Shown: positions 11,249 through 36,805 of the stretch, piece after piece | Layout of the letters: each line of letters opens with the position of its first letter | Position numbering within the stretch: the stretch's first letter is position 1 | Assembly: GCF_016405985.1 (NCBI RefSeq) | Contig: NZ_JAEFCF010000002.1 | Location: forward strand, 62,001 to 126,000 | Source: Paracoccus sp. IB05 | Lineage (GTDB): Bacteria > Pseudomonadota > Alphaproteobacteria > Rhodobacterales > Rhodobacteraceae | Direction of reading: 5' to 3' | DNA: 64,000 nt | The notes under the pieces: model-generated | What the model saw: the letters and a program-made list of their open reading frames with translations, nothing else | What the model was told of the DNA's origin: nothing | Database searches by the model: none | Translations under genes and position numbers: made by a program

Positions 11249-11409
11249 CTGTGCTTCTCCGGCGCTGCGATCCGACAGAGTTATGGCATGAAATCCCGTC
11301 TTACTGCCAGATAGACCTGGACCGCGCGGGTGCAAGAGCGGGCCGCCGCTTGCCGCGTGACAAAGGCATGTTACCTCATTATACCAGTTGCATCGAGGAG
11401 GAGCCTACC

Positions 11410-14973: not shown

Positions 14974-15484
14974 GTAAAGCGGACCGCGATGGCCAGGGTT
15001 CCGGCCAGGGCGCGGATCAGACCCGGCTGCTGCGTGAAATCGACAAGGTCGAGCCGCTGCAATCCGCCCCCGGGCGCCAGCAGCAGGGCAAGGTCGAAGG
15101 CATGTTCTTCCGGCAGCGCGCCCTTGCTGACGCTGGCCGCCAGCGGGCGGCGACACATTACGTTGAAATCGAGGAGCGCGGGGCCCAGCAGTCGCGCCGA
15201 AACCGGGGCCTCACCCGCAAAGGCGAAGGGGGGGCTGCTTTCATCGAGCTGCCGCGCCCCGTCTGGTGTGGTCAGCACCATCGGCCCGCCTTCGATCACG
15301 GTGAGCACGCGGTCGATGCCGGGAAATTCGGAAAACGGACCGTCAGATGCCACCCAGGCGGTGGAGACGCGCCAGAAAAACGTCTCTGACCCGGCGGAAA
15401 CCGGCGAAATGGCGATCTCCGCCGTCTGCCCGCCGCCATTCTTCCAGGGCCGGAAAATCCGGCCTTCAGCGGGGTAAACGCCCC

Positions 15485-15488
<4 letters not shown>
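14934..15488 (-). CDS. hutD: HutD family protein
   Basis: This 184-residue cupin-like protein is of the HutD family, whose role in Hut is proposed to be fine-tuning (limiting high urocanate or formylglutamate levels) rather than catalysis. The family-typical N-terminal motif [13 protein letters not shown] and [20 protein letters not shown] are clear. The start is GTG 15488 in a GTGA overlap with the end of hutU. It is the last gene of the minus-strand hut operon, and its 3' end overlaps the 3' end of hutC on the opposite strand. Confidence 0.9.
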
Positions 15489-17179
<1,691 letters not shown>

Positions 17180-17191
17180 GGCGGGAACCTC

Positions 17192-17992
17192 TCAGCGATT
17201 GGCCAAAGCGGGCGCGAGTTCGGCAAGTTTTTTGAGTATTTGTGCCAGGGTGAGACGCAAATGGGCGGCTTTCTGCGGATCCGTTGCGAAGGGGGGCGTT
17301 TCGGTCGCGAGATAGCTGCTTTGCGCCAGCTCCATCTGGATCGCGTGAACGCCTGACGCGGGCTCGCCATAATGCCGCGTGGTCCAGCCGCCGCGAAAGC
17401 GCCCGTTCTGCACCCAGGAATGGCCCGAGGCCCGGGCGATATCGACCACTGCCGCCTCAAGTTCCGGCGCACAGGTCACGCCGCCATCGGTGCCGATGTT
17501 CAGATCGGGCAGAACGCCCTCGAAAAGCCAGGGGATTTGCGACCGGATCGAGTGGCAGTCATAGACAATCGCCACGCCATGCAGCGCCTTCACCCGGGTG
17601 ATTTCAGCCTGAAGCGCGGCGTGATAGGGGCGATGCACGGTTTCCAGCCAATGGGCGGTGTCGGTGGCGGTCGGACCGGCCCCTTCGCGCCAGATCGGGG
17701 TGTTGTCAAAGGTGGTCTCGGGGATAAGCCCGGTTGTGGTCTTGCCGGGATAGAGGCTGTTGCCATCAGGATCACGGTTCAGATCAATCACATAGCGCGA
17801 ATGATTGCCGGTGATCGTGGTCAGACCCGGGATCAGATCGAAATAGAGATGCTGAATATGCCAGTCGGTATCGCGGCTGAGCCGACCCTCGTCATTCAGG
17901 CGCTGACCAACCTCATGCGGGTAGGAAAACCCGGCATGGGGAAAGCCGAGAATGATCGGGCTGTTGCCCTGCCGGAGGGTGAACGGGTCCAT
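17192..17992 (-). CDS. hutG: N-formylglutamate deformylase
   Basis: This 266-residue protein belongs to the N-formylglutamate amidohydrolase family (ILGFPHAGFSYP, RYVIDLNRDPDG, YDCHSIRSQIPWLF, the last with metal ligands). It cleaves N-formyl-L-glutamate to glutamate and formate, the last step in the branch that starts with HutF. The name HutG is also used for formimidoylglutamase of the arginase family; this is the deformylase kind, and the presence of hutF confirms that route. ATG 17992 overlaps the hutH stop by one base. Confidence 0.95.
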   Translation of the reverse strand: MDPFTLRQGNSPIILGFPHAGFSYPHEVGQRLNDEGRLSRDTDWHIQHLYFDLIPGLTTITGNHSRYVIDLNRDPDGNSLYPGKTTTGLIPETTFDNTPIWREGAGPTATDTAHWLETVHRPYHAALQAEITRVKALHGVAIVYDCHSIRSQIPWLFEGVLPDLNIGTDGGVTCAPELEAAVVDIARASGHSWVQNGRFRGGWTTRHYGEPASGVHAIQMELAQSSYLATETPPFATDPQKAAHLRLTLAQILKKLAELAPALANR

Positions 17993-19536
17993 CAGCCCAC
18001 CTCCGGCAAGAGGCCGGCCCCGGCAAGGTCGAGCGCGCCGGTGGCGATCAGCTCGCCCGCCGCCTCCATATCGGTTCCCATGAATCGGTCGGTTTCAAGC
18101 ACCGGAATGCGCGCCCGGATCGCCTCGATTGCGGCTTCAAGCCGGGGAGAGGATTTCAGCGGCCCGCGCAGATGCACGCCCTGGGCTGCGATCATCGCCT
18201 CGGTGCCGATGATCCAGAACAGGTTCTGCGTCATGGCGAGCAACCTGCGCGCGCCGTGGCAGGCCATCGAGACGTGATCCTCCTGATTGGCGGAGGTGGG
18301 GGTGGAATCGACGCTCGCCGGATGTGCCATCTGCTTGTTTTCGCTCATCAAAGCGGCGGTTGTGACTTCGGCGATCATCATGCCGGAATTCAGCCCCGGC
18401 TTTGGCGTCAGAAAGCCCGGCAGCCCGTAAGACAGCGCGGGGTCAACCAGCAATGCGACGCGGCGCTGCGCGATTGCACCGATCTCGGCCACGGTCAGCG
18501 CGATCATATCGGCGGCGAAGGCCACCGGTTCCGCGTGGAAATTGCCGCCCGAGACCACCTGGCCATCCGAAAGGATCAGCGGGTTGTCGGTGGCGGCATT
18601 GGCCTCGATCTCTAGCGTCCGCGCCGCCTGGCGCAGCACATCAAGCGCGGCACCCGCGACCTGGGGATGACAGCGGATGCAATAGGGGTCCTGCACCCGT
18701 TCATCCCCCTCGACATGGCTGTTGCGGATCTGACTGCCTTCAAGCAATTCGCGCAGCGCACGGGCGACATCGATCTGGCCCTGATGGCCGCGCAGCGTGT
18801 GGATTTCCGCGGCAAAAGGCGCGGTCGATCCCATCGCGGCATCGGTCGACAGCGCGCCGGTGATGATCGCGGCCCGAAGCGCGCGCTCGGCCCGGAAGAG
18901 CCCCGCCAGCGCGAGCGCGGTCGACACTTGCGTGCCGTTGATCAGGGCAAGCCCCTCTTTCGCGGCAAGCGTGACCGGTCTCAGCCCGGCACGGGCGAGG
19001 GCCTCGGCGCCGGAAAGGCGGGTGCCCCGGTAAAACGCCTCACCCTCGCCGATCATCACCGCGGCCATATGCGCCAGCGGCGCCAGATCGCCCGAGGCCC
19101 CGACCGAACCCTTTTCAGGGATCACCGGAATCACGTTTTCAGCCAGCATAGAGCCTAAAAGGGCCACAACTTCGGGCCGCGTACCCGAGGCTCCGCGCCC
19201 CAGCGACATCAGTTTCAGCGTCATGATCAGCCGCACCACGGGCTCGGTCAAAGGCGCACCTACCCCACAGCAATGCGACAGGATCAGGTTCCTTTGCAGC
19301 GTGGCGACATCGCGGGCCTCAATGCGGATCGAGGCCAGTTTGCCAAAGCCCGTATTGACGCCGTAGACCGCCTCATTGCCGGCGGCGACTTCGGCGATCC
19401 GCGCAGCCGCGCGTTTGATGCCGGCATCGGCGACCAGATCGAGGCGGGGGGTGATCCCGTCCCACCAGATCCGGCGCAGGAGGGAGAGCGGCACCGCGCC
19501 CGGAATCAGGCTTTGGGGGATGAGGGTCTCGGTCAT
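17992..19536 (-). CDS. hutH: histidine ammonia-lyase
   Basis: This 514-residue enzyme eliminates ammonia from L-histidine to give urocanate, the HutC inducer. The MIO prosthetic group forms from Ala147-Ser148-Gly149 in [14 protein letters not shown], which is intact. [40 protein letters not shown] and [14 protein letters not shown] are family blocks. ATG 19536 overlaps the hutI stop by ATGA. All catalytic features are present and length is normal. Confidence 0.97.
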
Positions 19537-20732
19537 TGCAGGTCTCCCTGGAAGATGCGGGCGTGAAGCGGGTTAAAGCCGATCCGCGCCACCAGCTGCG
19601 CGGGGCGCGTGACATCCCAAAGCGCCAGATCGGCGGAAAGCCCGGGTCTGAGGCGCCCGGTCTCGGCGCTCAGACCAAGCGCGCTTGCGGCATTGGCGGT
19701 CACCGCCAGCAGGCATTCGGCGACGGTGAGGCGGAACAGCGTCGCGCCCATATTCATGACCATCAGGATCGAGGTCAGCGGTGAAGTGCCCGGATTGCAA
19801 TCGGTCGAAAGCGCCATCGGGACGCCATGGTCGCGAAAAGCCTGGACCGGCGGCATCACCGTTTCGCGCAACATGTAAAAGGCACCCGGCAGCAAGGTGG
19901 CCACCATGCCCGATTCCGCCATAAGCCGCGCATCTTCCGCCGTCGCATGTTCCAGATGGTCGGCGGAAAGGGCATTGTAGCGCGCGGCTAAAGCGGTGCC
20001 GCCCTGATGGCTGAGCTGTTCCGAATGAATCTTAACCGGCAAGTCGAGGGCGCGGGCTGCATCAAAAAGCGGCTCTAACTCGGCCTGACTGAAGGCAATC
20101 CCCTCGCAAAAGGCGTCGACGGCATCAACCAGCCCTTCGGCAAAGGCGGCCTTCAGCCCGCCAATCGCGACCTCGTCAATATAGGCACCGGCCCTGCCCG
20201 CATATTCGGGCGGAAGGGCATGGGCGGCGAGCCAGGTCGTCCTGATCCGCACCGGCCGGATCTGCCCCAGCCGCCGCGCGGCACGCAGCATGTTCAGCTC
20301 GGCCCCGACCGACAGGCCATAGCCGGATTTGATCTCGACAGTTGAGACCCCCTCGGCCAGCAGATGATCGAGGCGCGGCAGGCTGGCCGTGACCAGCGCC
20401 TCGACGGACAGGGCGCGGGTGGCCGCCATCGAGGCTTTGATCCCGCCGCCCTGGCGCGCGATCTCTTCGTAAGGAACCCCGTCGAGCCGCATCTCGAATT
20501 CATTGGCGCGGTCGCCGCCGAAGACCAGATGCGTGTGGCAGTCAATCGGTGCCGGCGTCAGCAACCGCCCGCCACAATCGACGATCCGCCGCCCGTCACG
20601 CGGCAGCGCCCGGCCAAGCGCAGTGATGCGGGTGCCGGTCACTTCCAGCTCGAGCGCGCCGGGGTCAGGCTCGCGCGCAACCTCGCCGTCGCAGGTGACG
20701 ATCCGCGCATTGGTGTAGAGCGTGGCGCCCAT
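19533..20732 (-). CDS. hutI: imidazolonepropionase
   Basis: This 399-residue amidohydrolase opens 4-imidazolone-5-propanoate to N-formimidoylglutamate. Metal and catalytic residues are in [22 protein letters not shown] and [18 protein letters not shown] is conserved. ATG 20732 is chosen over an upstream TTG because GGGAGA lies 6 bases before it. First gene of the minus-strand operon hutI-H-G-U-D, divergent from hutF with a candidate HutC operator 62 bases upstream. Confidence 0.96.
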
Positions 20733-20794: not shown

Positions 20795-20807
20795 CAGGTA
20801 TATACAT
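20795..20807. promoter_or_regulatory. candidate HutC operator between hutI and hutF
   Basis: CAGGTATATACAT, centred on the palindrome GTATATAC at 20798-20805, with A/T-rich flanks (CTTT..AAAG). It is 62 bases before the hutI start and 48 before the hutF start, so one site could control both directions. The exact same 13-mer recurs at 26902-26914. HutC proteins are GntR regulators whose known sites are TGTA..TACA-type palindromes, so the match is good, but binding is inferred. Confidence 0.65.
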
Positions 20808-20855
20808 AAAGAGATAAAAAGGGAAGCGGATTCTCGGATCGGGCAGGAGGGGTGA

Positions 20856-22190
20856 ATGGCGATCCATGCAAAACAGGCGTTGCTGCCGGGCGGCTGGACC
20901 GAGGATGTCCGGCTGACGACAGCGGCAGGTCGTATCGTATCGGTCGAAAGCCAGGTGGCGGCGCGGCCAGGCGATCACTGTGCCGGGATTCTGTTGCCCG
21001 GCATGCCCAACCTCCACAGCCATGCGTTTCAGCGAGGGTTTTCGGGGCTAACGGAACTTCGGGGCGCCGGTCCGGACAGTTTCTGGACCTGGCGCGAGAT
21101 GATGTACCGTTTCGCCCTCAGCCTGACACCGGATCAGATGCAGGCCATCGCAGCCATGGCCTGTGTCGAGATGCTCGAGGCGGGCTATACAAGGCTGGGA
21201 GAGTTCCACTACCTGCATCATGCGCCGGATGGCCGCCCCTATGCCGATCCGGCCGAGATGTCGGGCCGTATCTTCGCGGCGGCTCGGGATACCGGAATCG
21301 CGCTGACACATCTGCCGGTCTTTTACGCGCATGGGGGCTTTGGCCCGACCCCGGCGGGTGACGGGCAGCGGCGCTTTCTGCACAGCTATGACGCCTTCGC
21401 GCATCTGGTTGAACATTGCGCCCCCCTGAGACGCGAGCAGGATCGGGTGGGGATCGCGCCACATAGCCTGCGCGCGGCGAACATGGCTGAAATCCGGCGG
21501 CTGGCGGCCGATTTTCCGGATCGCCCCTTCCATATCCATATCGCTGAACAGGTGAAGGAAGTTGAGGATTGCCTTGGCTTTTGCGGCGCGCGCCCGGTGG
21601 AATATCTGCTGGCACAGGCGCCGGTTGATCCCTCCTGGTGCCTTATTCACGCGACACATCTGACCAGGGCCGAGACCAGTGCGATTGCGGCTTCAGGTGC
21701 GGTTGTTGGACTTTGCCCGCTGACCGAGGCCAATCTGGGCGATGGGATCTTTCCGGGATCGGACTATCTGACCGCGGGGGGGGCCTGGGGGATCGGCACT
21801 GACAGCAATGTCGAGATCACTGTCGCGGGGGAGCTGAAGCAGCTGGAATACTCGCAAAGACTGGCCTCGCGGGCACGCAATGTTATGACCCCTGGCGGCT
21901 CTGTGGGGACTGCCCTGTTTGCAGCGGCATTAAAGGGAGGGGCGCAGGCCCTGTCAGTTCCGGAGCCGCAGATCGCGCCGGGTGCAGATGCGGATCTTGT
22001 GGCTCTGACAGACCCGCTGGGCTCGGGTTTTGCCACGGGGCAAATCGTCGATCGCTGGATCTTTGGTCGCGACCTGAAGGTCGCCGATGTCTGGGCTTTT
22101 GGCGCTCATGTGGTGCAGGGCGGAGAACATATTTTGCGCGCCCCGGTTGCGGCGGCATATGCATCAGCGCTGCGCGCGGTCCTGGCCTGA
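20856..22190 (+). CDS. hutF: formimidoylglutamate deiminase
   Basis: This 444-residue amidohydrolase-superfamily enzyme hydrolyses N-formimidoyl-L-glutamate to N-formylglutamate and ammonia, feeding HutG. The metal-binding NLHSHAFQRGFSGL, THLPVFYAHGGFGP, HIAEQVKEVEDC and WGIGTDSNVEI are typical. AGGAGGGG lies just upstream of ATG 20856. It is transcribed away from hutI from the shared region with the candidate HutC operator, completing the five-step histidine-to-glutamate pathway. Confidence 0.95.
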   Translation: MAIHAKQALLPGGWTEDVRLTTAAGRIVSVESQVAARPGDHCAGILLPGMPNLHSHAFQRGFSGLTELRGAGPDSFWTWREMMYRFALSLTPDQMQAIAAMACVEMLEAGYTRLGEFHYLHHAPDGRPYADPAEMSGRIFAAARDTGIALTHLPVFYAHGGFGPTPAGDGQRRFLHSYDAFAHLVEHCAPLRREQDRVGIAPHSLRAANMAEIRRLAADFPDRPFHIHIAEQVKEVEDCLGFCGARPVEYLLAQAPVDPSWCLIHATHLTRAETSAIAASGAVVGLCPLTEANLGDGIFPGSDYLTAGGAWGIGTDSNVEITVAGELKQLEYSQRLASRARNVMTPGGSVGTALFAAALKGGAQALSVPEPQIAPGADADLVALTDPLGSGFATGQIVDRWIFGRDLKVADVWAFGAHVVQGGEHILRAPVAAAYASALRAVLA

Positions 22191-22217
22191 CCCTGTCACA
22201 GGGTGCTGTGAAGCGGG

Positions 22218-22655
22218 TCACGGGATGAACAGCGACTGCCGGCTGATTGTTCCGATGCTCAGCCCCAGCGTCCGGCCAACGGATTGCACGAAACTGCCCG
22301 CGAAATCATAGCTGGCTGTGATGACAATAATCCTGTCCGGGCCCTGAGGCGGACTGCACGAGATAAGCGTGAAATTCTCGGGATGCAGAAGCAGGCTGGC
22401 ATTGACGAGAATTGGGACCGCGTCGCGTTCAAGGGTCGCGCAGAGCTGGTTCGCTTCGGGCCGGCCTGCATAGCGGTAGGAATAACGGGCAAGCTCATGC
22501 ACGACCTGCTGCAGATCGCTGGCTGCAGAAATATACATGCTGATAAAGACGATAAGGAAAATCAGCGCCAGCACGAGTGGAAAGACAATCACGAATTCCG
22601 CCGTCACCGCAGCATCTGAGCGGGTGAGAAATCTTTGCAAGGGGCGCCAGGTCAT
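22218..22655 (-). CDS. TadE-like pilus assembly protein
   Basis: This 145-residue protein has one hydrophobic segment near the N-terminus (AAVTAEFVIVFPLVLALIFL, about residues 15-34), with the Glu and Pro placement of TadE pseudopilins. After the membrane segment comes a 100-residue extracytoplasmic domain with two cysteines (LCATLER, LISCSPPQ). ATG 22655 has GGGGGA upstream and overlaps the preceding frame by ATGA. It looks intact although the two genes before it look decayed. It converges on hutF with a 27-base gap holding a CCCTGTCACAGGG palindrome. Confidence 0.7.
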   Translation of the reverse strand: MTWRPLQRFLTRSDAAVTAEFVIVFPLVLALIFLIVFISMYISAASDLQQVVHELARYSYRYAGRPEANQLCATLERDAVPILVNASLLLHPENFTLISCSPPQGPDRIIVITASYDFAGSFVQSVGRTLGLSIGTISRQSLFIP

Positions 22656-23206
22656 AACACATCCCCCGGAATTGCCAGCGCCATCAAGGCTTTCTGCGGG
22701 GCAGAGATATATCGGCTGCCCCTGGTTGGGGGCATAACACCCTCCGGGCCTGCGATCATTTGTGCCAGGTTGCGGGCATTTACGCAGCTTATCTCCCTCC
22801 ACCGGGCCCTGCAGATGGATATCGCGGAGAGCATGCGGACGACCCTGATAATGCCCTGACCCGAAAGCATCCCGGATCCCGGCAAACCCACATCAGCGAC
22901 AAGGTCCAGGCGCGCGGGGCGGGACGCGGGCAAAGGCCGCATTTCTTTCCGGCATCCCGCCGTTACAGTCCTGCGGGCGGTTGGCACCAAGAAAACCAGG
23001 ACGTCCTGGGGGCTCAATCCCGGCGTGGCAAGGAAATTGCGGGTCCCGTCGCGATTGGCGTCGTCGAGATGGTGGCTGCCCGGAGCGACGCGACAGGGCA
23101 GCATTGCCCCGACCGCTTCGCCCACCTGGCGTTCCGATAGCTCCGTAAGCCGCGGGTTGGCATATCTGGCCAGTACTGCAAAGGCGAGGTCCAGCGGTTT
23201 CCACAT
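22652..23206 (-). pseudogene. CpaD-like Tad pilus protein, probably decayed
   Basis: This 184-codon frame has a good ribosome-binding site (AAGGTGG) and lies 13 bases after the cpaC remnant, overlapping tadE by ATGA. The C-terminal part keeps the CpaD-like pattern CVNARNLAQMIAGPEGVMPP. The N-terminus reads AVLARYANPRLTELSERQ, where a lipobox with Cys before ANPRLTEL would be expected; the Cys is gone. About 26 unrelated residues separate DVGLPGSG from CVNARNLAQ. The frame has no internal stop, so it may still be translated. The CpaD call is weak to moderate. Confidence 0.45.
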
Positions 23207-23219
23207 GATCCATCCCACC

Positions 23220-24287
23220 TTACTGCAGACTGAAGCCGCCACGGCGGCTGCGTAAGCTGATCCTGGTACCGGGCCTGATTCTGCGGATCATTTTTCCGGT
23301 CACCGCCTGTTCGATCCCGCTGCCCGGCCCGGACGTGGTGGTTGCGCTCCTCTGGTTCAGCGCGGGCGCATCGGCATTGCCGGCGCCGGCACGGTCGGTA
23401 TCGCGCATATTGCTGGCGGGTTCCGGCCTGATCTGGGCCGTCTGCACGAACTCCAGCTTTACCCCGATTGGCTCAGGCTGACAGGCATCCAGATTGCTAT
23501 AGGCCCGAACCGGAAAGAGTAATCGCCCGCCGGCAGGAAATTTCGCGGCTTCACCCGATCGCGTCGTCAGGTCCGGCGCTGAGAGAATGGCAGCAAACCT
23601 GTTTTGCGACCATGCATCCGGCAGGCGGTTGAAATCGCCAAAACCGCAGCCGCTGCCGAGGCAACTGCCGCCGCTCCTCTGGGGCGCAGTAAAGTCGCCG
23701 GTGCTGGCGCTCAGGCCGTTGCCGGGATCCTCGCTGATGCTGCGAGAGACCGTCGCGATCCGGACCTGAAGACTGACCTGCGCACGGGCCCCGGTATCGC
23801 GCTGGTTCACGATGCTGGAATTGTCGCCCAACAACACCGCGACAATGTCGCCCGGCCTGGCCGCCCCGCTTTTTGACCTGGCCTTTCTGTTCCGGACCAC
23901 CGCGCCATTAAATGTCGAAACCGAAGCGTTGCCGCCCGATACCGCATGGCGTGCTACGGCCGAAAGCGCTGCCGCATCGACATCAGCCGCGATGGTCGCG
24001 CTGACGATCCTCTCATGATCCTCGCCCGGCATGAAGAGACTGGCGGCTCTGACCTCGCGACCGTCCGCATAAAGACGACGCGCCGACATCAGGTCGGGTT
24101 CGGCAATCGGAGGGTCTGACAGGAAAACTGCCGAGGCGGGCTTTTCAGGCTTTATGAATTTCGCCACGGCAACATTGGGGGTCAGCCAGCCGGACCCGAC
24201 CGGCTCGGCATCCTGGCCAATCCCGGCAATGGGAGCCGGCACCGTCTGGAGATCGGCCGGCACATTTGCTGATAAAAAAGGCAACAT
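23220..24287 (-). pseudogene. CpaC/RcpA-like pilus secretin, decayed
   Basis: The 355-codon frame keeps recognisable secretin pieces in order: KPEKPASAVFLSDPPIAEPD (N-terminal domain), SATIAADVDAAALSAVARHA, then a variant of the QV.LRVRIAEVSRSV block (QVSLQVRIATVSRSISED) and LSAPDLTTRSGEAAKFPAGG (start of the secretin core). After that the secretin barrel is not recognisable; APALNQRSATTT hints at APALxxRRAxTT in a shifted frame, and the usual GLGDxPxLGALF end is missing. A separate frame from 24367 gives a basic start (MTLATLRFCKAVPRRMG) that could be the lost signal peptide, displaced by an upstream frameshift. I read it as a pseudogene of a Tad pilus secretin. Confidence 0.55.
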
Positions 24288-24367
24288 CGGAATCGCTTTC
24301 CTGCACCTGGGACAGCCCCCATTCTGCGCGGCACAGCTTTACAGAATCTCAACGTCGCCAGGGTCAT

Positions 24368-24809
24368 TGGCGGTCCGGTCTGGCAAAAAACGCGTCAACT
24401 TTTGTGAAAGGTGTTTAGCTTAAGGTCTCTTCAGCCGGCTGTGGCGCGCCGGAAAAGGGTGCCGGGCGGGATCGGGTGCAACGCGGAGAGAGAAGCTTTC
24501 ATGACCAGATCGCATTACCTGCACATTATGTCTTCTGTTTTGCTGCCGGTACCAGTGTCACGCGCGCCCCCGAGACCGCGCAGCTGGCACAGACGGCCTG
24601 GTCGGTAGAGGAATACGACGAAGCGGGCCACTTCGAGCGCGCGGCAGCGGGGGGCTGCTTTGCTCAACGCTTTGTTGCGCATAGAAACATCCTATGAAGA
24701 TCCGGGTAAGGGGGATGCCGGGACAAGGCTGGCCGAATTCCACGCCGCCCTGAAGCCACAGCGCGGCTGTCTCATCTTTCAGCAGCTGGCCGCACCCGGG
24801 CAAGGGCAG
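24368..24809. other. gene-poor stretch beside the Tad remnants
   Basis: About 440 bases with only short frames that resemble nothing I know. It lies between the 3' end of the HisC-like gene and the start of the decayed cpaC, both on the minus strand. It could hold a former promoter for the pilus genes (TTGACG at about 24391-24396 on the minus strand is -35-like) or remnants of further Tad genes too decayed to recognise. Confidence 0.4.
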
Positions 24810-25928
24810 TCAGGCAAGCAGCGCGCCAAGCGCCGCCAGCACCTGGTCTCCATCTTCCGCAGTCCCGGTCGAAACCCGCAGCCAGTTCTCGTAACCCTTC
24901 TGTTTCCAGGGCTTTACGATGATACCGCGATCCAGCAGCCCCTCAGCAACCTGACCGGCAGGCCGCCCGCAATCGACAAAGAGAAAATTGCCGCGCGAGG
25001 CCAGGACCCGCAGTTCCAGTGACCGCAGCGCCTTTGCCATACGGTCGCGTTCCTGCACAGCGAGGCCAACGGCCTGGTGCATCGACGCGGTATGATCCAG
25101 CGCGGACCTTGCCGCGACCTGCGCCAGGAGATTCGTATTGAATGGCGTGCGGGCAAGATCAAAGCCGCGCTTCAGGTCTGCTGAGTTGGTCATGGCATAG
25201 CCAATCCGCAGACCCGCAAGACCCCAGGCCTTGGAGAAGGTCCGCAGGATCACCAGCGGGCCGGGATGGGTGGCAAGCCAGGGCGCGCCGCTGGCATAAT
25301 CCGGCCCGTCACCGGGGGCCGAGGCATATTCGTGATAGGCCTCATCCAGACAGGTGATCGCGTCGGGATGAACAGCCGCAAGCACCGACCGCAGCCCGTC
25401 CGCATCAAGCCAGAGGCCGGCCGGGTTCATCGGATTGGCGAAAAGCACAAGGCGTACCGGCCTCGACACGGCCGCGAGCAAGGCCGGCAGGTCGATCTCT
25501 CCCGCAGCGGTCAGCCCGATTCGCGTGACTTTCGCGCCCATGGTCTGCGCATAATCCTCATGCAGCGGGAAGGAGGGAAACAGCGTCACCACCTCGTCCC
25601 CGGGCCGCAGAACCGCGCGGGCCAGCACTGCCAGCAGATCCTCAGAGCCGTTTCCAAGCGTGAAATGCGGGGGATCGAGCCCGTGAAACGCGGCCAGCGC
25701 GGCGATCAGATCGCGCCCCTCCGGATCGGGATAGGCCCCGATGCGACCCGCCGCTTCACGTACGGCCGCAATCACCCCGGGTGCCGGGCCGGCGGGATTT
25801 TCATTCGACCCCAGCTTTGCCACCCGTGTCACACCGGGGCGTGACGCGACTGCCGCCGGCGTCAGCCCGGCATTATAGGGGCTGAGCGCAGCCAGCTCGG
25901 GGCGCAAAAGTGAGACAGATCCGGTCAT
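24810..25928 (-). CDS. HisC-like pyridoxal-phosphate aminotransferase
   Basis: This 372-residue class I/II aminotransferase of the histidinol-phosphate aminotransferase group shows LGSNENPAGPAP, the NGSEDLL loop, DEAYHEYA and the PLP lysine in RTFSKAWGLAGLRIGY. ATG 25928 fits the family N-terminus; the upstream extension of the frame does not. It is divergent from the SDR gene, with a GTATATAC operator-like site 63 bases upstream, and it is not near biosynthetic his genes. Role inferred: transamination in a catabolic pathway, possibly imidazolepyruvate/histidine; aromatic amino acids are an alternative. A biosynthetic HisC role cannot be excluded. Confidence 0.85.
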   Translation of the reverse strand: MTGSVSLLRPELAALSPYNAGLTPAAVASRPGVTRVAKLGSNENPAGPAPGVIAAVREAAGRIGAYPDPEGRDLIAALAAFHGLDPPHFTLGNGSEDLLAVLARAVLRPGDEVVTLFPSFPLHEDYAQTMGAKVTRIGLTAAGEIDLPALLAAVSRPVRLVLFANPMNPAGLWLDADGLRSVLAAVHPDAITCLDEAYHEYASAPGDGPDYASGAPWLATHPGPLVILRTFSKAWGLAGLRIGYAMTNSADLKRGFDLARTPFNTNLLAQVAARSALDHTASMHQAVGLAVQERDRMAKALRSLELRVLASRGNFLFVDCGRPAGQVAEGLLDRGIIVKPWKQKGYENWLRVSTGTAEDGDQVLAALGALLA

Positions 25929-25990
25929 GGGTCCCTCAGGAAAGAGCGGTGGGCAAGGGCGGTTGACAGCCGGGTCGAAGCTATGTCTCT

Positions 25991-26001
25991 TGTATATACA
26001 T
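25991..26001. promoter_or_regulatory. candidate HutC operator between HisC-like gene and SDR gene
   Basis: TGTATATACAT, with the palindrome TGTATATACA at 25991-26000, in the context CTCTTGTATATACATGTAAAGAG. It shares GTATATACAT and a following AAAGAG with the hutI-hutF site. It is 63 bases before the aminotransferase start and 75 before the SDR start, so it can act on both. Confidence 0.62.
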
Positions 26002-26075
26002 GTAAAGAGTGCCGTCTGCTGTTCTCTCTTCCGGCCGGGATCGTTAATCTCACCGGCAATGAAAGGAAGCCTGCC

Positions 26076-26846
26076 ATGCATACCGCGTCCAGTGTCACCG
26101 CGCTCTTCTCTCTTTCCGGCCGCCGTGCCCTTGTGACTGGCGCCAGCCGGGGTCTTGGCCAGGCCATGGCACTGGGTCTGGCGCAAGCCGGGGCGGATCT
26201 GGTGATTTCCGCCCGCAGCATCACTGCGCTTGAGGAGACCGCCGGGCTGATCCGCGACGCTGGCGGCAGGGTCACAGCGCTTGCACTGGATCAGCGTGAG
26301 GTCGGCGGCATCGAAGCCGCGCTTGCAGGCCTGGGGGATATCGACATCCTGGTGAACAATGCCGGGGTGGAAGAAATCCGTCCCTCGACCGAAGTGACCG
26401 AGGCGCTTTGGGACAAGATCGTCGACACCAATCTTAAGGGTGCGTTTTTCACCACCCAGGCGGTGGCAAAGGGCATGCTGGATCGCGGGCGCGGTGCGGT
26501 CATCAATCTTTGTTCGCTGACCTCTTATGTCGGCGTGCCCACCGCCACGCCTTACGGGTCGTCGAAATCGGGGCTTTTGGGCATGACGCGGGCGCTGTCA
26601 GCCGAATGGGCGGCGCGCGGCGTTAGGGTCAACGCCATCGCGCCGGGCTATTTCCGCACCGAGATGACGGAAGTGTTCTACCAGAATGAGGCCTGGGCGG
26701 GGGCGATGCTCGACAAGATCCCGCAGCGCCGCTTTGGCGAGGGTGCCGATCTGATTGGCGCGGTGATTTTCCTCGCCTCGGACGCTTCGGCCTATATCAC
26801 CGGGCAATGTATCGGTATTGACGGCGGGTATCTGGCCTCGATCTGA
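26076..26846 (+). CDS. short-chain dehydrogenase/reductase
   Basis: This 256-residue classical SDR has the cofactor motif TGASRGLG at residues 21-28, LVNNAG near residue 90, and the catalytic YGSSK. The ending YITGQCIGIDGGYLAS is typical of gluconate 5-dehydrogenase or 3-oxoacyl reductase-like members. ATG 26076 has AAAGGAAG upstream; the longer frame start at 25983 would overlap the operator and is unlikely. It probably oxidises or reduces a secondary alcohol of the compound imported by the next genes. The 155-base gap to the ABC operon contains a small GCCTGaaataCAGGC hairpin and a further operator-like site. Confidence 0.88.
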   Translation: MHTASSVTALFSLSGRRALVTGASRGLGQAMALGLAQAGADLVISARSITALEETAGLIRDAGGRVTALALDQREVGGIEAALAGLGDIDILVNNAGVEEIRPSTEVTEALWDKIVDTNLKGAFFTTQAVAKGMLDRGRGAVINLCSLTSYVGVPTATPYGSSKSGLLGMTRALSAEWAARGVRVNAIAPGYFRTEMTEVFYQNEAWAGAMLDKIPQRRFGEGADLIGAVIFLASDASAYITGQCIGIDGGYLASI

Positions 26847-26901
26847 GCCATCTGCCTGAAATACAGGCGTGATGCTGTAAAATCCGGGCCAAAACCCTTC
26901 T

Positions 26902-26914
26902 CAGGTATATACAT
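26902..26914. promoter_or_regulatory. candidate HutC operator upstream of the ABC importer operon
   Basis: CAGGTATATACAT, identical over 13 bases to the hutI-hutF site, with GTATATAC at 26905-26912. It lies 87 bases before the preferred start of the ABC ATPase and downstream of the SDR stop, so it most likely controls the eight-gene operon that follows. Confidence 0.65.
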
Positions 26915-27001
26915 TATGCCGGTTAAGGGGAAGAAAGACAGCGGAAGGCGCGATGCGATGGGTGAGGATCTACGGAAATGTCAGGCAGGAGCAACGCAGA
27001 T

Positions 27002-28099
27002 ATGAGCGGGACGGGCTCGTCTGACGCCGTGGTGGCGCGGAATGTGGATATGGATTTCGGCACCGGCGCGATGGCGGTGAAACAGGCCGGGTTCAGCCTC
27101 GCGCGCGGGCGGTTCCTGACCATTCTCGGCCCGTCGGGATCGGGGAAGACCACGCTTTTGCGGATGATCGCGGGCTTTCAGACGCCGACGCGCGGCGAGA
27201 TCCTGATCGGCGGCAAGCCTGCGGATGCGGTGGCGCCGCATCGCCGCTCGGTGGGGATGGTGTTTCAGAAACTGGCGCTGTTCCCGCATATGAGTGTCGA
27301 GGAAAATGTTGCCTTCCCGCTGAAGATGCGGCGCTTCAACCCGCGTGAGATCCCGGGAAGGGTGGCGCAATATCTGGATCTGGTGCGGCTGGGCGGCTTT
27401 GCGAAACGGCGGATCAATGAGCTTTCGGGCGGCCAGCAACAGCGGGTGGCGATTGCGCGGGCGCTGGTATTCGAGCCCGAGCTTTTGCTGCTGGATGAGC
27501 CGCTGGCGGCGCTGGACCGCAAGCTGCGCGAAGAGATGCAGCTGGAATTTCGCCGCATTCAGAAAGAGTTGGGCGTCACCACGATCAATGTGACCCATGA
27601 CCAGCGCGAGGCGCTGGTGGTCTCGGATGAGATCATCGTGATGGACCAGGGCGAGATTCAGCAACATGCTTCGCCGGTCGAGATGTATCGCCGCCCCGCG
27701 AACCCGTTCGTGGCGCATTTCATCGGCGTGTCGAGTTTTCTGGCGGGCCGGCGGACAGAAACGGGCCTGACCGTGAATGGCAGTGATTGCGCGGGCCAGG
27801 CGGTGGCGGATATTGCGCCGGGCGCTGAGGCGCGGGGTGCGATCCGGGCCGAACAGGTGCGGATCGCGGCGCCGGGGGACGCGCTTTCCGGTTGCGATAC
27901 TGTGCTGGAGGGCCAGGTCAGTGACACGATTTTCGAAGGCGAGCGGCTTTTGTACTTTGTCACCCTGCCGGCGCTTGCGACGACAATTCAGGTTTTTCAC
28001 CACGATCCGGCAGAACATGCGCCCTATGCGCGGGGCGCGACAGTTTCGGTCGGCTGGACTGCAAGAGACCTGCTGATCTTTCCCGCAAAAGACCGCTAA
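27002..28099 (+). CDS. ABC transporter ATPase, spermidine/putrescine (PotA) class
   Basis: This 365-residue ATPase energises the importer made with the next three genes. Walker A is GPSGSGKTT, signature LSGGQQQRVAIARAL, Walker B LLLLDEPLAALD, and the switch His in NVTHDQREAL. A C-terminal TOBE-type domain (about residue 260 on) is typical of the PotA/MalK group. ATG 27002 has AGGAG 10 bases upstream; ATG 26978 in frame is possible. It begins an operon running to 35943. Confidence 0.92.
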   Translation: MSGTGSSDAVVARNVDMDFGTGAMAVKQAGFSLARGRFLTILGPSGSGKTTLLRMIAGFQTPTRGEILIGGKPADAVAPHRRSVGMVFQKLALFPHMSVEENVAFPLKMRRFNPREIPGRVAQYLDLVRLGGFAKRRINELSGGQQQRVAIARALVFEPELLLLDEPLAALDRKLREEMQLEFRRIQKELGVTTINVTHDQREALVVSDEIIVMDQGEIQQHASPVEMYRRPANPFVAHFIGVSSFLAGRRTETGLTVNGSDCAGQAVADIAPGAEARGAIRAEQVRIAAPGDALSGCDTVLEGQVSDTIFEGERLLYFVTLPALATTIQVFHHDPAEHAPYARGATVSVGWTARDLLIFPAKDR

Positions 28100-28136: not shown

Positions 28137-29246
28137 ATGTCGAACCCTGTTTATCGTCCCAATCGCCGTGCGCTCTTGCGCGGAACGGCTGCTGCAGGGG
28201 CAGCGGCGCTGATCGGATCGCTGCCGGCGCGCCGGCTGATGGCGCAGGACGCGCCGGCAAAACCTGCCGAGATCATCGTGCGGGCCTGGGGCGGATCCTG
28301 GGTTGAGGCGCTGAAGAAAGGCGTCTCGGACCCGTTCACCGCTGCGACCGGCATCCAGGTGCGTCACGATCTGACCGAAGATAACGAGATCCAGCCGAAG
28401 GTCTGGGCATCGGTCGCGCAAGGCCGCGTGCCGCCGATCCATATCAACTGGGACACCACCACCAATGCGACGAAATCGGCGCTGCGCGGTGTGACCGAGG
28501 ATCTGTCAGATCTGGCGAATCTTGCGAATACGACCGATCTGGCAAAGCCCGTGGGGCTCGACGGCTATCCGATCGTGAATACCTATGGCTATGTCTATGT
28601 GCTGGCCTACCGGCCGGGGGCGTTCCCGGATGGTGCGCCGACCTCGTGGAAGGTGCTGCTGGATCCGAAATTCAAGGGGCGGATTGCGCTTTACAATGAC
28701 GGGATCGGCTTCCACTTCCCGGCTCAGGTGGCGGGCGGCGGCAATCTCGAGGATATTCCGGGCAATATGCAACCGGCCTGGGATTTCATCACGCAGGTGA
28801 AACAGCAGCAGCCGCTGCTGGGCGAGGACCCCGATTTCACCGCCTGGTTCCAGAATGGTGAGATCGACATCGCCTGTACCATTTCGACCAATGCGCGCGA
28901 AGCGAAGAAGAACGGTGTCGATCTGGCCTGGACCGTGCCGGAAGAGGGCGCGAAGTTTGACACGGATGGGCTCTGGATCCCGAAAGGTCTGCCGGAGAAT
29001 GAGCTCTACTGGGCGAAGGAATATATCAACTTCGCCATCAGCCAGGACGCGCAGCAGGTCTGGTGTGACGGGCTGGGACTTCCGGGCGTGGTGCCGGGGC
29101 TGACGCCGCCGGAGGATCTGGTGGGCGACCCGTCCTACCCGGATACGCCGGAAGAGATGGCGCATCTGATCCGCATCTCGACCAAGGTACAGGTCGAGAA
29201 TGAGAGCGAATGGTTCTCGAAGTTCAAAGAGATCATGCAGGGATAA
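28137..29246 (+). CDS. ABC transporter substrate-binding protein, PotD-like, Tat-exported
   Basis: This 369-residue periplasmic protein starts with a twin-arginine signal (PNRRALLRGTAAAGAAALIG, about residues 8-27, cleavage likely after MAQ). The mature part begins EIIVRAWGGSWVEALKKG, typical of the spermidine/putrescine-binding family (SBP type 1/8). Folding before export via Tat is unusual but known for this class in alphaproteobacteria. The ligand is unknown; the family includes polyamine, opine and other organic-cation binders. It is followed by a run of three GC-rich hairpins before the permeases. Confidence 0.9.
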   Translation: MSNPVYRPNRRALLRGTAAAGAAALIGSLPARRLMAQDAPAKPAEIIVRAWGGSWVEALKKGVSDPFTAATGIQVRHDLTEDNEIQPKVWASVAQGRVPPIHINWDTTTNATKSALRGVTEDLSDLANLANTTDLAKPVGLDGYPIVNTYGYVYVLAYRPGAFPDGAPTSWKVLLDPKFKGRIALYNDGIGFHFPAQVAGGGNLEDIPGNMQPAWDFITQVKQQQPLLGEDPDFTAWFQNGEIDIACTISTNAREAKKNGVDLAWTVPEEGAKFDTDGLWIPKGLPENELYWAKEYINFAISQDAQQVWCDGLGLPGVVPGLTPPEDLVGDPSYPDTPEEMAHLIRISTKVQVENESEWFSKFKEIMQG

Positions 29247-29393: not shown

Positions 29394-30341
29394 ATGCCGA
29401 ACCCCTCTCCCGAGTTTCGCTACCCGCTGCACTGGCGCCTGATGGATGCGGTGGAGCGGATCGCCGACCTGGTCTGGCCGCGCCGTCTGTCGCGCCATAC
29501 CGGCTGGCTGTTTATCGCGCCTGCGCTTTTGCTGGTCGGGCTTCTGGTGCTGGGGCTGATCCAGATCGCGGATGCCTCGCTCAGGACGCTGGACACCTCG
29601 ACCTTTCTGATGTCGGAGGACTGGTCGACAGAGAATTACCGCAAGGCGCTTTCGTCTTCCACCTATCTGACGGTGGCCTGGCGGTCGCTGTCGGCCGCGG
29701 TTCTGACCACGGTTCTGACGCTGATCCTCGCGTTTCCCTATGCCTGGGCGCTGGTGCGGGTGAAAAAGGCCTGGATCCGCAAGGCGCTGCTGATCACGCT
29801 GTTTTTGCCGTTTTTCATCGGCCAGGTGGTGCGCGCCTATGGCTGGCTGATCATCCTCGGGAATTCCGGCATGGTGAATGAGGCGCTTTCGCTGGTCGGC
29901 GTGACCCCGATGCGGCTTTTGTTCAATTACGGCGCGGTGGTCTTCGGCCTTGTGCAATATATGCTGCCCTTCGCCGTGCTGCTGCTGGTGCCGGCGCTGA
30001 CCGCAATCCCGGAAGAAACCGAGACCGCCGCCGGGTCGCTGGGCGCGAGCTGGCCGCGCATTCTGTGGCATGTGCTGCTGCCGATGGCGAAGCCCGGGCT
30101 GATCGGGGCGGGGCTCGTGGTATTTACGCTGACGCTCACCGATTTCGCGGTGCCGGCGATGCTGGGCGGCGGCGGTCAGGATTTCATCGCCAATGCGATC
30201 TATGACCAGTTCTTTCGCACCGCCGATCAGGGGCTTGGCTCGGCGCTGGCGCTGATACTGGTGGCGGCAGGGTCGGTGCTGGTGGGGCTGGTGTTCATGA
30301 TCTTCGGCGCCGGGACGCTGGCGATGGGAGGCCGCAAATGA
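29394..30341 (+). CDS. ABC transporter permease, PotB class
   Basis: This 315-residue inner-membrane permease has a first membrane segment LFIAPALLLVGLLVLGLIQ near residue 40 and five more in the body. The EAA loop that docks the ATPase is EETETAAGSLGASWPRILWH. It pairs with the next gene, which overlaps it by ATGA, as the two membrane subunits. ATG 29394 follows the hairpin cluster after the binding-protein gene. Confidence 0.92.
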   Translation: MPNPSPEFRYPLHWRLMDAVERIADLVWPRRLSRHTGWLFIAPALLLVGLLVLGLIQIADASLRTLDTSTFLMSEDWSTENYRKALSSSTYLTVAWRSLSAAVLTTVLTLILAFPYAWALVRVKKAWIRKALLITLFLPFFIGQVVRAYGWLIILGNSGMVNEALSLVGVTPMRLLFNYGAVVFGLVQYMLPFAVLLLVPALTAIPEETETAAGSLGASWPRILWHVLLPMAKPGLIGAGLVVFTLTLTDFAVPAMLGGGGQDFIANAIYDQFFRTADQGLGSALALILVAAGSVLVGLVFMIFGAGTLAMGGRK

Positions 30342-31135
30342 TGTCTTTCAGCCAGAAAATCACCGTCTGGAGCCTCGTCTGGTTCTCGATCATCACCCTG
30401 TCTTTGCCGACGCTGGTGGTGCTGGGGGCGAGCCTGACCGCCGGCAATATGGTCGCCTTTCCGCCGCAGGGGCTTTCGCTGCAATGGTATGAGAAGATCG
30501 CGCTGGCCCGCGATCTGCAGCAGGCCTTTCTGCGCTCGCTGATCGTCGCCGGGATCTGCACCCTCGTTGCGGTGCCGGTGGGGACGCTGGCGGGCCTTGC
30601 GCTGTCGCGGTTCCGCCTGCGCTTTACCACGGCGATCCAGGTCTATCTGCTCTTGCCCTTTACCGTGCCACTGATCGGATCGGGGATCGGGCTGATGCTG
30701 GTGTTCGGTGAATGGCATGTGCTGGGCAGCCTCTGGCCGGTGGGCATGGCCTGCGCGGTCATCAATCTGCCCTTCATCATCTGGTCGGTCTCGTCTTCGG
30801 CGGTGCTGCTGGACCCGGATCTTGAGCTTGCGGCGCAGAATTGCGGGGCAGGGCGGGTGCAGACCTTCCTTCATGTCACGCTGCCTGCCGTGATGCCGGG
30901 CGTGATCACCGGGGGGCTTCTGATGTTCATCCTCGCGATGAACGAATTCCTTGTGAGCCTCCTTCTCACGGATGCCCGCATCGTCACTTTGCCGGTGCTG
31001 ATCTACAACTCGATCCGCTCGATCATCACGCCTGATCTGGCTGCCGTCTCGGTGGTGTTCATCGCGATTGCGCTGGCGGCGATCTGGTTGCTCGACAAGC
31101 TCGTCGGGCTGGAAATCTTTCTTAAATCCAAATGA
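30338..31135 (+). CDS. ABC transporter permease, PotC class
   Basis: This 265-residue second permease subunit has about six membrane segments and an EAA loop DPDLELAAQNCGAGRVQTFL. ATG 30338 lies in an ATGA overlap with the first permease. The substrate-recognition class is spermidine/putrescine (PotC/PotI), but this family carries many cations and small organic compounds. The gene ends about 20 bases before the preferred start of the HisD-like gene. Confidence 0.92.
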   Translation: MMSFSQKITVWSLVWFSIITLSLPTLVVLGASLTAGNMVAFPPQGLSLQWYEKIALARDLQQAFLRSLIVAGICTLVAVPVGTLAGLALSRFRLRFTTAIQVYLLLPFTVPLIGSGIGLMLVFGEWHVLGSLWPVGMACAVINLPFIIWSVSSSAVLLDPDLELAAQNCGAGRVQTFLHVTLPAVMPGVITGGLLMFILAMNEFLVSLLLTDARIVTLPVLIYNSIRSIITPDLAAVSVVFIAIALAAIWLLDKLVGLEIFLKSK

Positions 31136-31155
31136 CTATGCGAGAGGGCCTGTCC

Positions 31156-32481
31156 ATGGCTGAGGTCAATTTCAAAATCCTGGCCGATCTGTCGGCGGTC
31201 GAGCGCGAGGCGCTGTTCGCCCGGTCAGAGACCGATCTGTCGATGTTTCTGGAAAAAGTTCCGGCGATCATTGAGGCAGTGAAAACCCGTGGCGATGCCG
31301 CGCTGGTCGAGTTCGGGGTGAATTTCGACAAGGCCGAGGGGCTGACGGCGGACAAGCTGAAAGTGACCGAGGCCGAATTCGACGAGGCCTTTACCCTGGT
31401 CGAGCCCGAGGTGATCCGCGCGATTGAGCTAGGGATCGCGAACATCCGCTCTTTCCACGAAGAACAGGTCCCGGAGCCGATGACGCTGAAGGAGATCCGC
31501 CCCGGTGCCTTTGCCGGGGATCGGTTCATCCCCATCGATTCGGTTGCGCTTTATGTGCCGCGCGGCAAGGGGTCGTTTCCGTCCGTGACCATGATGACCG
31601 GCGTGCCGGCAGTGGTGGCGGGGGTGCCGAATATCGCCATCTTCACGCCGCCGATCCCGGGCGGCAAGGTCGATGCGGCGACCCTGGTGGCGGCACGACT
31701 CGCGGGCGTCAAGACGGTCTATAAGGCCGGTGGCGCCCAGGCGGTGGCTGCGGCGGCCTATGGCACGGAAACCGTGCGGCCCTGCCATAAGATCGTTGGC
31801 CCGGGCAGCCCCTGGGTGGTGGCGGCAAAGCGCCTCCTGTCGGGCGTGATCGACCCCGGCCTGCCCGCTGGCCCGTCGGAATCGATCATCTTCGCCGATG
31901 AAACCGTGCGTGGCGGCCTCGCCGCGCTTGATCTGCTGATCGAGGCCGAACATGGGCCTGACAGTTCCGCCTGGCTCGTGACCAATTCCCGCCGCGTCGC
32001 GGATGAGGCGCTGGCCGCGCTGCCGGACCACTGGTCGCGGATGAGCGAGCAGCGGGTTGGTTTCTCGAAAGCGGTGCTGTGCGGCAGCCATGGCGGCATC
32101 CTCGTGACCGGGACCCTGGCCGAGGCCTATGCCTTCATCAATGATTACGCGCCGGAACATCTCCAGCTCCTTTCGGAAAAACCCTTCGAGCATCTGGGCG
32201 AGATCACCGCCGCCGCCGAGATCCTGATGGGGCCATATACGCCGGTCTCGATCGGCAATTTCTGCCTTGGCCCGAATGCGGTGCTGCCGACCTCGCGCGG
32301 TGCGCGCACTTATGGGCCGCTTTCCGTGACCGATTTCATCCGCCGGTCCTCGGTCGGCTACGTCACTGCAAAGGGTTTCCCGGAACTGGCCGAGGCTGCC
32401 GGAACGCTGGCGCGCTATGAGGGGTTCGACAATCACGCCAATGCGGTCTCAGACATCCGCAAGCAGTATCTGAAGGGCTGA
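31156..32481 (+). CDS. HisD-family dehydrogenase paralogue with altered zinc site
   Basis: This protein (441 residues from ATG 31156, which has AGAGGG 8 bases upstream; ATG 31132 overlapping the permease stop is possible) has the whole histidinol dehydrogenase fold: YVPRGKGSFPS, AGGAQAVAAAAYG, VGPGSPWV, AGPSESIIFAD. Against E. coli HisD the catalytic Glu326-His327 pair is kept (DYAPEHL), as are His262 (AEHG) and His419 (NHANAV). Zinc ligand Gln259 is Glu, zinc ligand Asp360 is Asn, and substrate-contacting His367 is Ala (SIGNFCLGPNAVLPT). A biosynthetic HisD is therefore unlikely. It probably oxidises an alcohol to an acid in the imported compound's pathway. HpsN (sulfopropanediol dehydrogenase) is a related family; identity with it is not supported. 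Confidence 0.8.
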   Translation: MAEVNFKILADLSAVEREALFARSETDLSMFLEKVPAIIEAVKTRGDAALVEFGVNFDKAEGLTADKLKVTEAEFDEAFTLVEPEVIRAIELGIANIRSFHEEQVPEPMTLKEIRPGAFAGDRFIPIDSVALYVPRGKGSFPSVTMMTGVPAVVAGVPNIAIFTPPIPGGKVDAATLVAARLAGVKTVYKAGGAQAVAAAAYGTETVRPCHKIVGPGSPWVVAAKRLLSGVIDPGLPAGPSESIIFADETVRGGLAALDLLIEAEHGPDSSAWLVTNSRRVADEALAALPDHWSRMSEQRVGFSKAVLCGSHGGILVTGTLAEAYAFINDYAPEHLQLLSEKPFEHLGEITAAAEILMGPYTPVSIGNFCLGPNAVLPTSRGARTYGPLSVTDFIRRSSVGYVTAKGFPELAEAAGTLARYEGFDNHANAVSDIRKQYLKG

Positions 32482-36255: not shown

Positions 36256-36805
36256 TGAACCATCTCGCTTCACACTACATTCAACCGGTCGGGCCGGAGC
36301 GCGGCCTTCCGGCATTTGCCCGAAGGGCCGCCATGAAAGCCGCATCGAAAGCGGCGCAACCTGCCGTCAGACTGTCATGACGCGGCCTGTCCCGCAATGC
36401 GAGCACGCCGCATCGGCCTCACAGTGCCGTCAACAGATTTGTGAGCTGGCAAAGATATTCTCACCGTCCGCGCCGGGGCCTTTGCGATTGTGGCCCGAAT
36501 GGGGCGTGAATGGGGCAGGGGGCAACATCGGCTGGTAGCCCGGGCGACCAGGGACACAACAGTTGGCGGGCGAAGGCATATTTCGCGTTCTTCCAGGGGT
36601 TGAAAGGCCGGATCTGAGGGTTGCCGAAAAGACCCACTTTGGGGCGAAAGTTGGGAAAAATTGCGGCCATGCATGTGAAGGACGCCTGATACCTACTGGA
36701 AATGAAAGTGAAACCCGGTTATTCAGATCGGCAATAGACGCCGGAAGTGCGTCAATAAAAACATGTCGGGCCAACGAGTCCGGCGGTATGAGGCGGAGTA
36801 GTAAA
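36256..36805. promoter_or_regulatory. 550-base intergenic region upstream of the adhesin
   Basis: This gap separates the divergent lipoprotein and adhesin genes and must contain their promoters. It has no convincing gene. AT-richer patches at about 36720-36765 suit a promoter near the adhesin, but no clear -35/-10 pair or regulator site was identified. Confidence 0.4.

Follow-up and report, generated by a model that had tools for sequence, protein, structure and literature searches.

The 64,000-nucleotide (64-kb) stretch of the Paracoccus sp. IB05 genome analysed here, hereafter the window, carries the histidine-degradation (hut) genes with the repressor gene hutC and, further on, an accessory cluster coding for an ABC importer, dehydrogenases, a HisC-like aminotransferase and a kinase-fold protein. 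Three copies of one palindromic octamer, GTATATAC, were found in intergenic regions of both gene groups. The word was rare in window and genome, its pattern was conserved at the same promoters in related bacteria, and its presence followed that of HutC. From sequence comparison, the three sites are predicted operators, all of which HutC probably controls. HutC regulation would thus reach beyond the hut genes to a pathway that is still uncharacterised; the control of hut genes by HutC is itself already known.

The putative operators, named O1, O2 and O3 (strand not applicable), stand at positions 20798..20805, 25992..25999 and 26905..26912, exactly where an earlier sequence-only reading of this DNA had placed them. 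That reading had also expected the octamer to be rare in a GC-rich window, and indeed none was expected from 100 dinucleotide-preserving shuffles. O1 and O3 have in common an exact 13-mer, the wider word CAGGTATATACAT, and O2 is the variant TTGTATATACAT, again as previously described. With gene starts taken from the sequence, the three sites were confirmed to be intergenic and upstream of genes. O1 lies between hutI and hutF, 65 bases from the minus-strand ATG of hutI (beginning at 20732) and 50 from the ATG of hutF (20856). O2 occupies a 147-bp divergent gap between the start of the HisC-like gene hisC2 (25928, minus strand) and that of a short-chain dehydrogenase/reductase (SDR) gene (26076). 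O3 is located between the SDR stop (26846) and the start of the importer ATPase gene (26978), 65 bases upstream of the latter. The longer open reading frames (ORFs) that overlap O1 and O2 in the ORF list are mechanical. The whole genome (5,291,296 bases) contained GTATATAC five times and the same pattern read backwards 11 times. The two other copies of GTATATAC fell within unrelated ORFs of 622 aa (contig C68) and 339 aa (contig C86), so that three of the five copies, the sole intergenic ones, are found within 6.1 kb.

Known HutC sites are palindromes of this class, as the sequence-only reading had stated: HutC of Pseudomonas is reported to bind TGTA-N2-TACA and to be released by urocanate (PMC12977541), and GTMTAKAC is given as the consensus of the HutC subfamily (PMC4494728). 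The three exact copies of GTATATAC fit this published GT-N4-AC palindrome. The window's hutC, also recognised earlier, codes for a GntR/UTRA repressor (14209..14973, plus strand) that exceeds the TIGR02018 cut-off (256 bits against 220, match 14209-14970) and belongs to a hut-linked clade with 100/100 support. TIGR02018 displayed 28 GntR-type matches in the genome, among which only this gene passed the cut-off, the runner-up scoring 97.7 bits. Likewise, with a HutC paralogue encoded in other clusters (HutC2, see below) as query, the window HutC came top (38%, 122 bits) and the rest did not exceed 43.6 bits. Neither search revealed a second HutC-type regulator in this genome, and no regulator gene was present among the ORFs scanned within the accessory cluster. 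The possibility raised earlier, that another GntR gene might account for the sites, thus found no HutC-type candidate, and the single HutC is the only good one for all three.

Conservation was followed in loci recovered by a profile search of genome contigs with an alignment of the importer's binding protein, the best 79 loci being kept. Spacers were counted in 76 rows, i.e. 75 loci and the window (L065, L091, L106 and L115, where the SDR gene was not found, were left out). GTMTAKAC occurred at most 200 bases upstream of the SDR gene in 49 rows, in the SDR/importer spacer in 41, in either in 54 and in both in 36, counts that are not independent since the loci are related. The corresponding means in 200 mononucleotide shuffles, which ignore this kinship, were 0.66 upstream of SDR (maximum 5) and 0.65 in the spacer (maximum 4). 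GTMTAKAC ranked first of 384 degenerate palindromes at these spacers. The 79 loci together (1,546,768 bases) held 113 such sites, 14 of them preceding hutI, 51 preceding SDR, 41 between SDR and the importer genes and seven elsewhere; 106 of the 113 were thus confined to three promoter classes totalling about 46 kb. In all 14 loci showing hutI, a site stood at most 350 bases upstream of that gene. The core columns of the site alignment were fixed by the search pattern and the flanking columns alone are independent: among 29 dereplicated sites upstream of SDR, a T preceded the core in 96% and an A followed it in 100%, and positions farther out were near random (0.19 bits).

The hut enzymes adjoined the cluster in 17 of the 79 loci. 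Within the family of the window, G002 had the same arrangement and a site at each of the three positions, one being GTCTATAC; G149 had sites upstream of hutC as well as at the two cluster positions; G226 had one site by SDR, its stretch being without importer genes; and G263 had one by a HutC-family gene inside the cluster. The extended regulon suggested by the sequence-only reading is therefore supported by comparison, many Alphaproteobacteria having kept sites at the three equivalent promoters. That the shared octamers arose by chance, or are promoter-like AT-rich words, is hardly credible: they do have a TATA-like core, and a promoter scan, itself at chance level, gave one weak promoter-like match near O3, but none was expected in the window and conservation across loci is position-specific. 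Chance and compositional explanations were ruled out by the shuffles, the clustering in promoter classes and the conservation of flanking columns.

A check proposed earlier, whether the motif tracks hutC across related genomes, also came out in favour. HutC was searched for in the genomes of 50 chosen loci (49 searched, L080 left out) and exceeded the cut-off in 45. Cluster sites were present in 32 of these 45 and in none of the four that lacked it (Fisher p = 0.011), these only negatives being three related Aureimonas and one metagenome-assembled genome (MAG). HutC passed the cut-off in 53 of 289 genomes of the class, a baseline that overstates the effect because the cluster genomes come from few families, and in 144 of 295 of the family. 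Nine of the ten family genomes with a hisD2 match had HutC (a tally, not a statistical test); in the tenth, G017, nothing but hisD2 was seen, at 54%.

A second HutC-family gene, HutC2, was found inside the cluster locus in 39 of the 79 loci, many of them rhizobial. Its product passes the HutC cut-off (259.6 bits in L092), and it formed in the tree a clade of 39 rows separate from the 14-row hut-linked clade that includes the window HutC, both with 100/100 support, although several long branches were flagged, including in the 14-row clade. PRK14999 scores were 230 bits for a HutC2 (L092:15271-15996), 138 for a rhizobial HutC (L041:5761-6480) and 115 for the window HutC, the higher score hinting at a different origin of HutC2. 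HutC and HutC2 appear to share their operator, on which two HutC-family repressors may thus converge. O2 and O3 might accordingly be relics of a lost HutC2 that once ran the cluster, with HutC no longer in control, and the frequency of HutC2 in these loci, as well as the HutC-family gene of G263, would agree with such a history. This is nevertheless very improbable. The exact 13-mer common to O1 and O3 implies that binding of HutC to O1 should go with binding to O3, and four loci (L044, L048, L077 and L088) display a HutC-clade gene and conserved sites with no HutC2 in their stretch.

Control by HutC would operate as follows. Without inducer, a HutC dimer on O1 would block the divergent promoters of hutIHGUD and hutF; the minus-strand genes hutI, hutH, hutG, hutU and hutD lead away from this site on one side and the plus-strand hutF on the other. 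HutC on O2 would block the divergent hisC2 and SDR promoters, and on O3 a predicted operon running from the importer through hisD2, the alcohol dehydrogenase and the kinase-fold gene to the hydroxyacid dehydrogenase dependent on flavin mononucleotide (FMN). Urocanate formed by histidine degradation would release HutC, and all units would be expressed together, its part as effector at the accessory sites being suggested by analogy with other HutC proteins. For the organism of the window, we infer HutC binding, repression, operon extents and substrate.

The cluster's HisD-family dehydrogenase, HisD2 (31132..32481, plus strand), is divergent. Like histidinol dehydrogenase, it passes TIGR00069 (423 bits, cut-off 243.8) and keeps in alignment the catalytic Glu-His together with further substrate residues, among them one Ser as well as Glu and His of the C-terminal part. 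Residues were located by alignment with the zinc ligands (Gln/His/Asp/His) and substrate contacts of E. coli HisD. In contrast to this canonical set, HisD2 displays Glu271 and Asn376 in place of Gln and Asp, and both exchanges were invariant in the HisD2 clade (71 of 71 readable rows). The window's genome has four HisD-family genes, three of whose products were covered by the residue comparison (L127 was left out); the best-scoring one has Q and D at the two places. Further members lie at G000:C53:125416-126588 and G000:C18:84053-85240 (441 and 439 bits). A biosynthetic role of HisD2 was rejected, as another of the four genes has the canonical residues and the top score. This rejection is limited to HisD, a biosynthetic HisC not having been searched for. 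Labels such as 'histidinol dehydrogenase' or 'histidinol-phosphate transaminase' need not mean histidine biosynthesis here.

A set of SDR, Zn-dependent medium-chain dehydrogenase/reductase (MDR) and HisD-like enzyme is also known from dihydroxypropanesulfonate (DHPS) catabolism, where HpsO, HpsP and HpsN have these three folds and oxidise a vicinal diol, giving an aldehyde or acid; their genes often share an operon with those for transporters and a regulator (PMC11131964). The cluster could hence be a DHPS route, with SDR as HpsO, the Zn-dependent alcohol dehydrogenase as HpsP, HisD2 as HpsN and an incidental hut link. We consider this very improbable, since HisD2 was closer to solved HisD structures (213-244 bits) than to HpsN chains (175-189 bits), and since sites and hut neighbours are shared. 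Moreover, the zinc site of HpsN is described as containing Gln248 and Asp352, and His126 as diagnostic of the enzyme (PMC11382572), whereas HisD2 displays Glu271, Asn376 and the loop VPRGKGSFPS without the diagnostic histidine, HpsN having been compared through its published residues rather than aligned. As HpsN keeps Gln/Asp together with His126, HisD2 resembles neither HpsN nor canonical HisD.

The 427-aa protein encoded at 33480..34763 (plus strand) has no Pfam or NCBIfam match. Its AlphaFold2 model (33 sequences, mean pLDDT 90.6) was related by Foldseek to aminoglycoside-phosphotransferase (APH) and methylthioribose-kinase folds (probability 1.00, TM-score about 0.4), and HGDAHNAN and D274 were invariant. 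By this model, it is probably a small-molecule kinase.

As to the function of the cluster, we tentatively favour a feeder route from an imidazole alcohol to histidine, at somewhat less than an even chance. This guess rests on the HutC wiring, the hut neighbours in 17 of 79 loci, the HisC-like transaminase and the HpsNOP-like trio of folds. The accessory genes would most likely import an imidazole-bearing alcohol, such as histidinol or an imidazolyl-propanediol, to be oxidised and transaminated to histidine and then degraded by the hut enzymes; our best guess is an oxidation to imidazolelactate/imidazolepyruvate or straight to histidine. More tentatively still, a so far undescribed route feeding histidine catabolism may be widespread in the Rhodobacterales and Hyphomicrobiales, wired to the hut genes by HutC or by the dedicated paralogue HutC2 on one operator. 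To turn an environmental imidazole alcohol into histidine, it would combine a PotABCD-type importer, an SDR, a Zn-dependent alcohol dehydrogenase, a Glu/Asn HisD-family enzyme, a new kinase of APH fold, a hydroxyacid dehydrogenase and a HisC-like transaminase. In the parts of the literature covered (on HutC, histidinol catabolism, HisD-like clusters, HpsN and the Sinorhizobium meliloti genes), no study of the cluster's substrate was found.

Alternatively, the cluster may belong to the HutC regulon merely as a histidine or urocanate importer with a side route, hisC2 and the hydroxyacid dehydrogenase handling imidazolepyruvate and imidazolelactate. HutC regulons commonly hold histidine transporters of several families (PMC5343134), and hut genes occupy the DNA from hutC through hutF, where none of the annotated ORFs codes for a transporter. 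This version nevertheless seems unlikely: it offers no explanation for the SDR, the Zn-dependent alcohol dehydrogenase and the HisD-family enzyme, the importer resembles PotABCD, and genomes lacking hutH and hutU still keep a reduced cluster (see below).

Compared with the known Proteobacterial HutC regulon (PMC5343134; for Pseudomonas HutC, PMC12977541), the window is alike in HutC family, GT-N4-AC palindrome, hut core and transporters, and differs in also taking in a dehydrogenase/transaminase/kinase cluster. For 113 genomes, Leyn et al. (2016) predicted regulons of HutC that centre on the hut genes and add lineage-specific transporters; the main text of that work, figures and supplement aside, does not use 'histidinol', and the passages covered name no such cluster (PMC5343134). 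On the reading proposed here, a widely conserved uncharacterised cluster, including hisC3-hisD2 of the S. meliloti symbiotic plasmid, would gain a predicted regulator, inducer and metabolic home, with the prediction that soil and water bacteria import an imidazole compound.

The S. meliloti pSymA locus displayed homologues of hisC2 through the FMN-dependent dehydrogenase in the same order. Unlike the window cluster, it has its own in-cluster HutC2 (GntR). It carried GTATAGAC at both cluster positions, with 0.26 expected in the locus and two copies reached in 6 of 200 shuffles, and the 9 kb on either side of its hisD2 showed no gene for a hut enzyme. By gene order and names, we infer that it corresponds to SMa0387 to SMa0402 of strain 1021. 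In arrays of a tolC mutant, hisC3 (-11.4), hisD2 (-10.6), the importer genes (-8.3 to -23.5) and the GntR gene SMa0402 (-8.4) decreased, as did hutU (-10.3), hutG (-11.5) and hutH (-7.7) (PMC2912261). These arrays are only suggestive of a control shared by hut genes and cluster, because ntrB, ntrC and glnK dropped too (PMC2912261) and nitrogen control thus confounds the co-expression. The array authors listed the importer as a system of unknown function (PMC2912261), and the binding-protein gene SMa0392 is reported as a target of the small RNAs AbcR1/2 (PMC8844928).

This confounding, the kinship of the loci and the narrow composition of the HutC-negative genomes weigh against the proposed regulon and its histidine link, and so do the following observations. 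No exact site was present in either scanned spacer in 22 of the 76 rows, including the near relatives L037-L039, and GTMTAKAC was absent from the whole stretch in four of the eight family loci (L028, L032, L034 and L035; L032 and L081, on contigs of the same length, 183,978 bases, are probably one genome). Thirteen of the 45 HutC-bearing cluster genomes lacked an exact site in the two scanned spacers. L053 and L059 had one farther upstream, L037, L040, L050, L060, L094 and L111 had one-mismatch words, and L038, L039, L081, L086 and L108 had no site-like word. One-mismatch words are weak evidence because they are common: the window had 27, exact ones included, against 15 expected. An FCD-type GntR gene near the cluster in L060 and L108 suggests that the regulator may have been replaced there. 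No exact GTATATAC was found upstream of the window's hutC (14209-14973) either. A Gfo/Idh-type dehydrogenase gene and a D-apionate-lactonase-like gene (614 bits, cut-off 750) occupy 11251-14165, leaving a 43-base gap to the downstream hutC; given this gap and the missing operator, hutC may be co-transcribed with these two genes rather than autoregulated.

Other adverse points concern the hut enzymes. hutU passed the cut-off in 44 of the 49 cluster genomes, and hutH, searched for just in the five without full hutU, was lacking in four (L040, L046, L049 and L073). A strict co-occurrence of cluster and hut enzymes was therefore not upheld. The Aureimonas genomes L046, L049 and L073 (completeness unstated) had no hutH, hutU, site or HutC over the cut-off. 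They retained SDR, importer, hisD2 and FMN-dependent dehydrogenase, and their loci had no listed match to hisC2, the Zn-dependent alcohol dehydrogenase or the kinase. Such a reduced cluster indicates that the cluster can occur where histidine is not degraded, and these three genomes count against the histidine feeder route as its only role. Falsirhodobacter sp. alg1 (L040, completeness unstated) had HutC (L040:5965-6717) by hisC2 and the cluster, with no hutH or hutU found, so that the effector of HutC there is unlikely to be urocanate made from histidine. In genomes of these kinds, the cluster product must serve without histidine degradation, or supply histidine. An amidohydrolase gene adjoins the cluster in a hut-less Aureimonas (L046:15422-16906), which may hint at what becomes of the product. 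Ten of the 49 cluster genomes had a second hutU-family gene (about 679-694 bits), possibly, at a guess, a thiourocanate hydratase.

The remaining hut genes of the window were assigned by profile matches. On the minus strand are hutD (14934..15488; PF05962, 130 bits), hutU for urocanate hydratase (15485..17179; TIGR01228, 905 bits), hutG for N-formylglutamate deformylase (17192..17992; TIGR02017, 349 bits), hutH for histidine ammonia-lyase (17992..19536; TIGR01225, 682 bits) and hutI for imidazolonepropionase (19533..20732; TIGR01224, 406 bits). They are followed on the plus strand by hutF for formimidoylglutamate deiminase (20856..22190; TIGR02022, 581 bits). About 2.6 kb, with a TadE-like ORF and an ORF without assignment, separate hutF from hisC2 (24810..25928, minus strand), whose HisC-like aminotransferase scored 278.5 bits with TIGR01141 (cut-off 276.55) and 457 bits, below the cut-off, with NF003496.

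All other cluster genes are on the plus strand. The SDR oxidoreductase (26076..26846) is KduD/gluconate-5-dehydrogenase-like and stayed below the cut-offs of the 25 families shown. The importer is composed of a PotA-type ATPase (26978..28099; TIGR01187, 331 bits, cut-off 355.6), a solute-binding protein (28137..29246; PF13416, 139 bits) and two permeases, of PotB type (29394..30341) and PotC type (30338..31135). The Zn-dependent alcohol dehydrogenase of the MDR type (32485..33483; PF08240, 103 bits) is encoded between hisD2 and the kinase-fold gene, and an FMN-dependent alpha-hydroxyacid dehydrogenase (34768..35943; PF01070, 362 bits) ends the cluster. In L066, the cluster occurred as a mirrored inverted copy within one 15-kb contig end of a MAG, probably an assembly artefact. 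After the cluster, positions 36563-40201 of the window hold a 1212-aa ORF, glycine/proline-rich with Ig-like-looking repeats and adhesin-like by eye.

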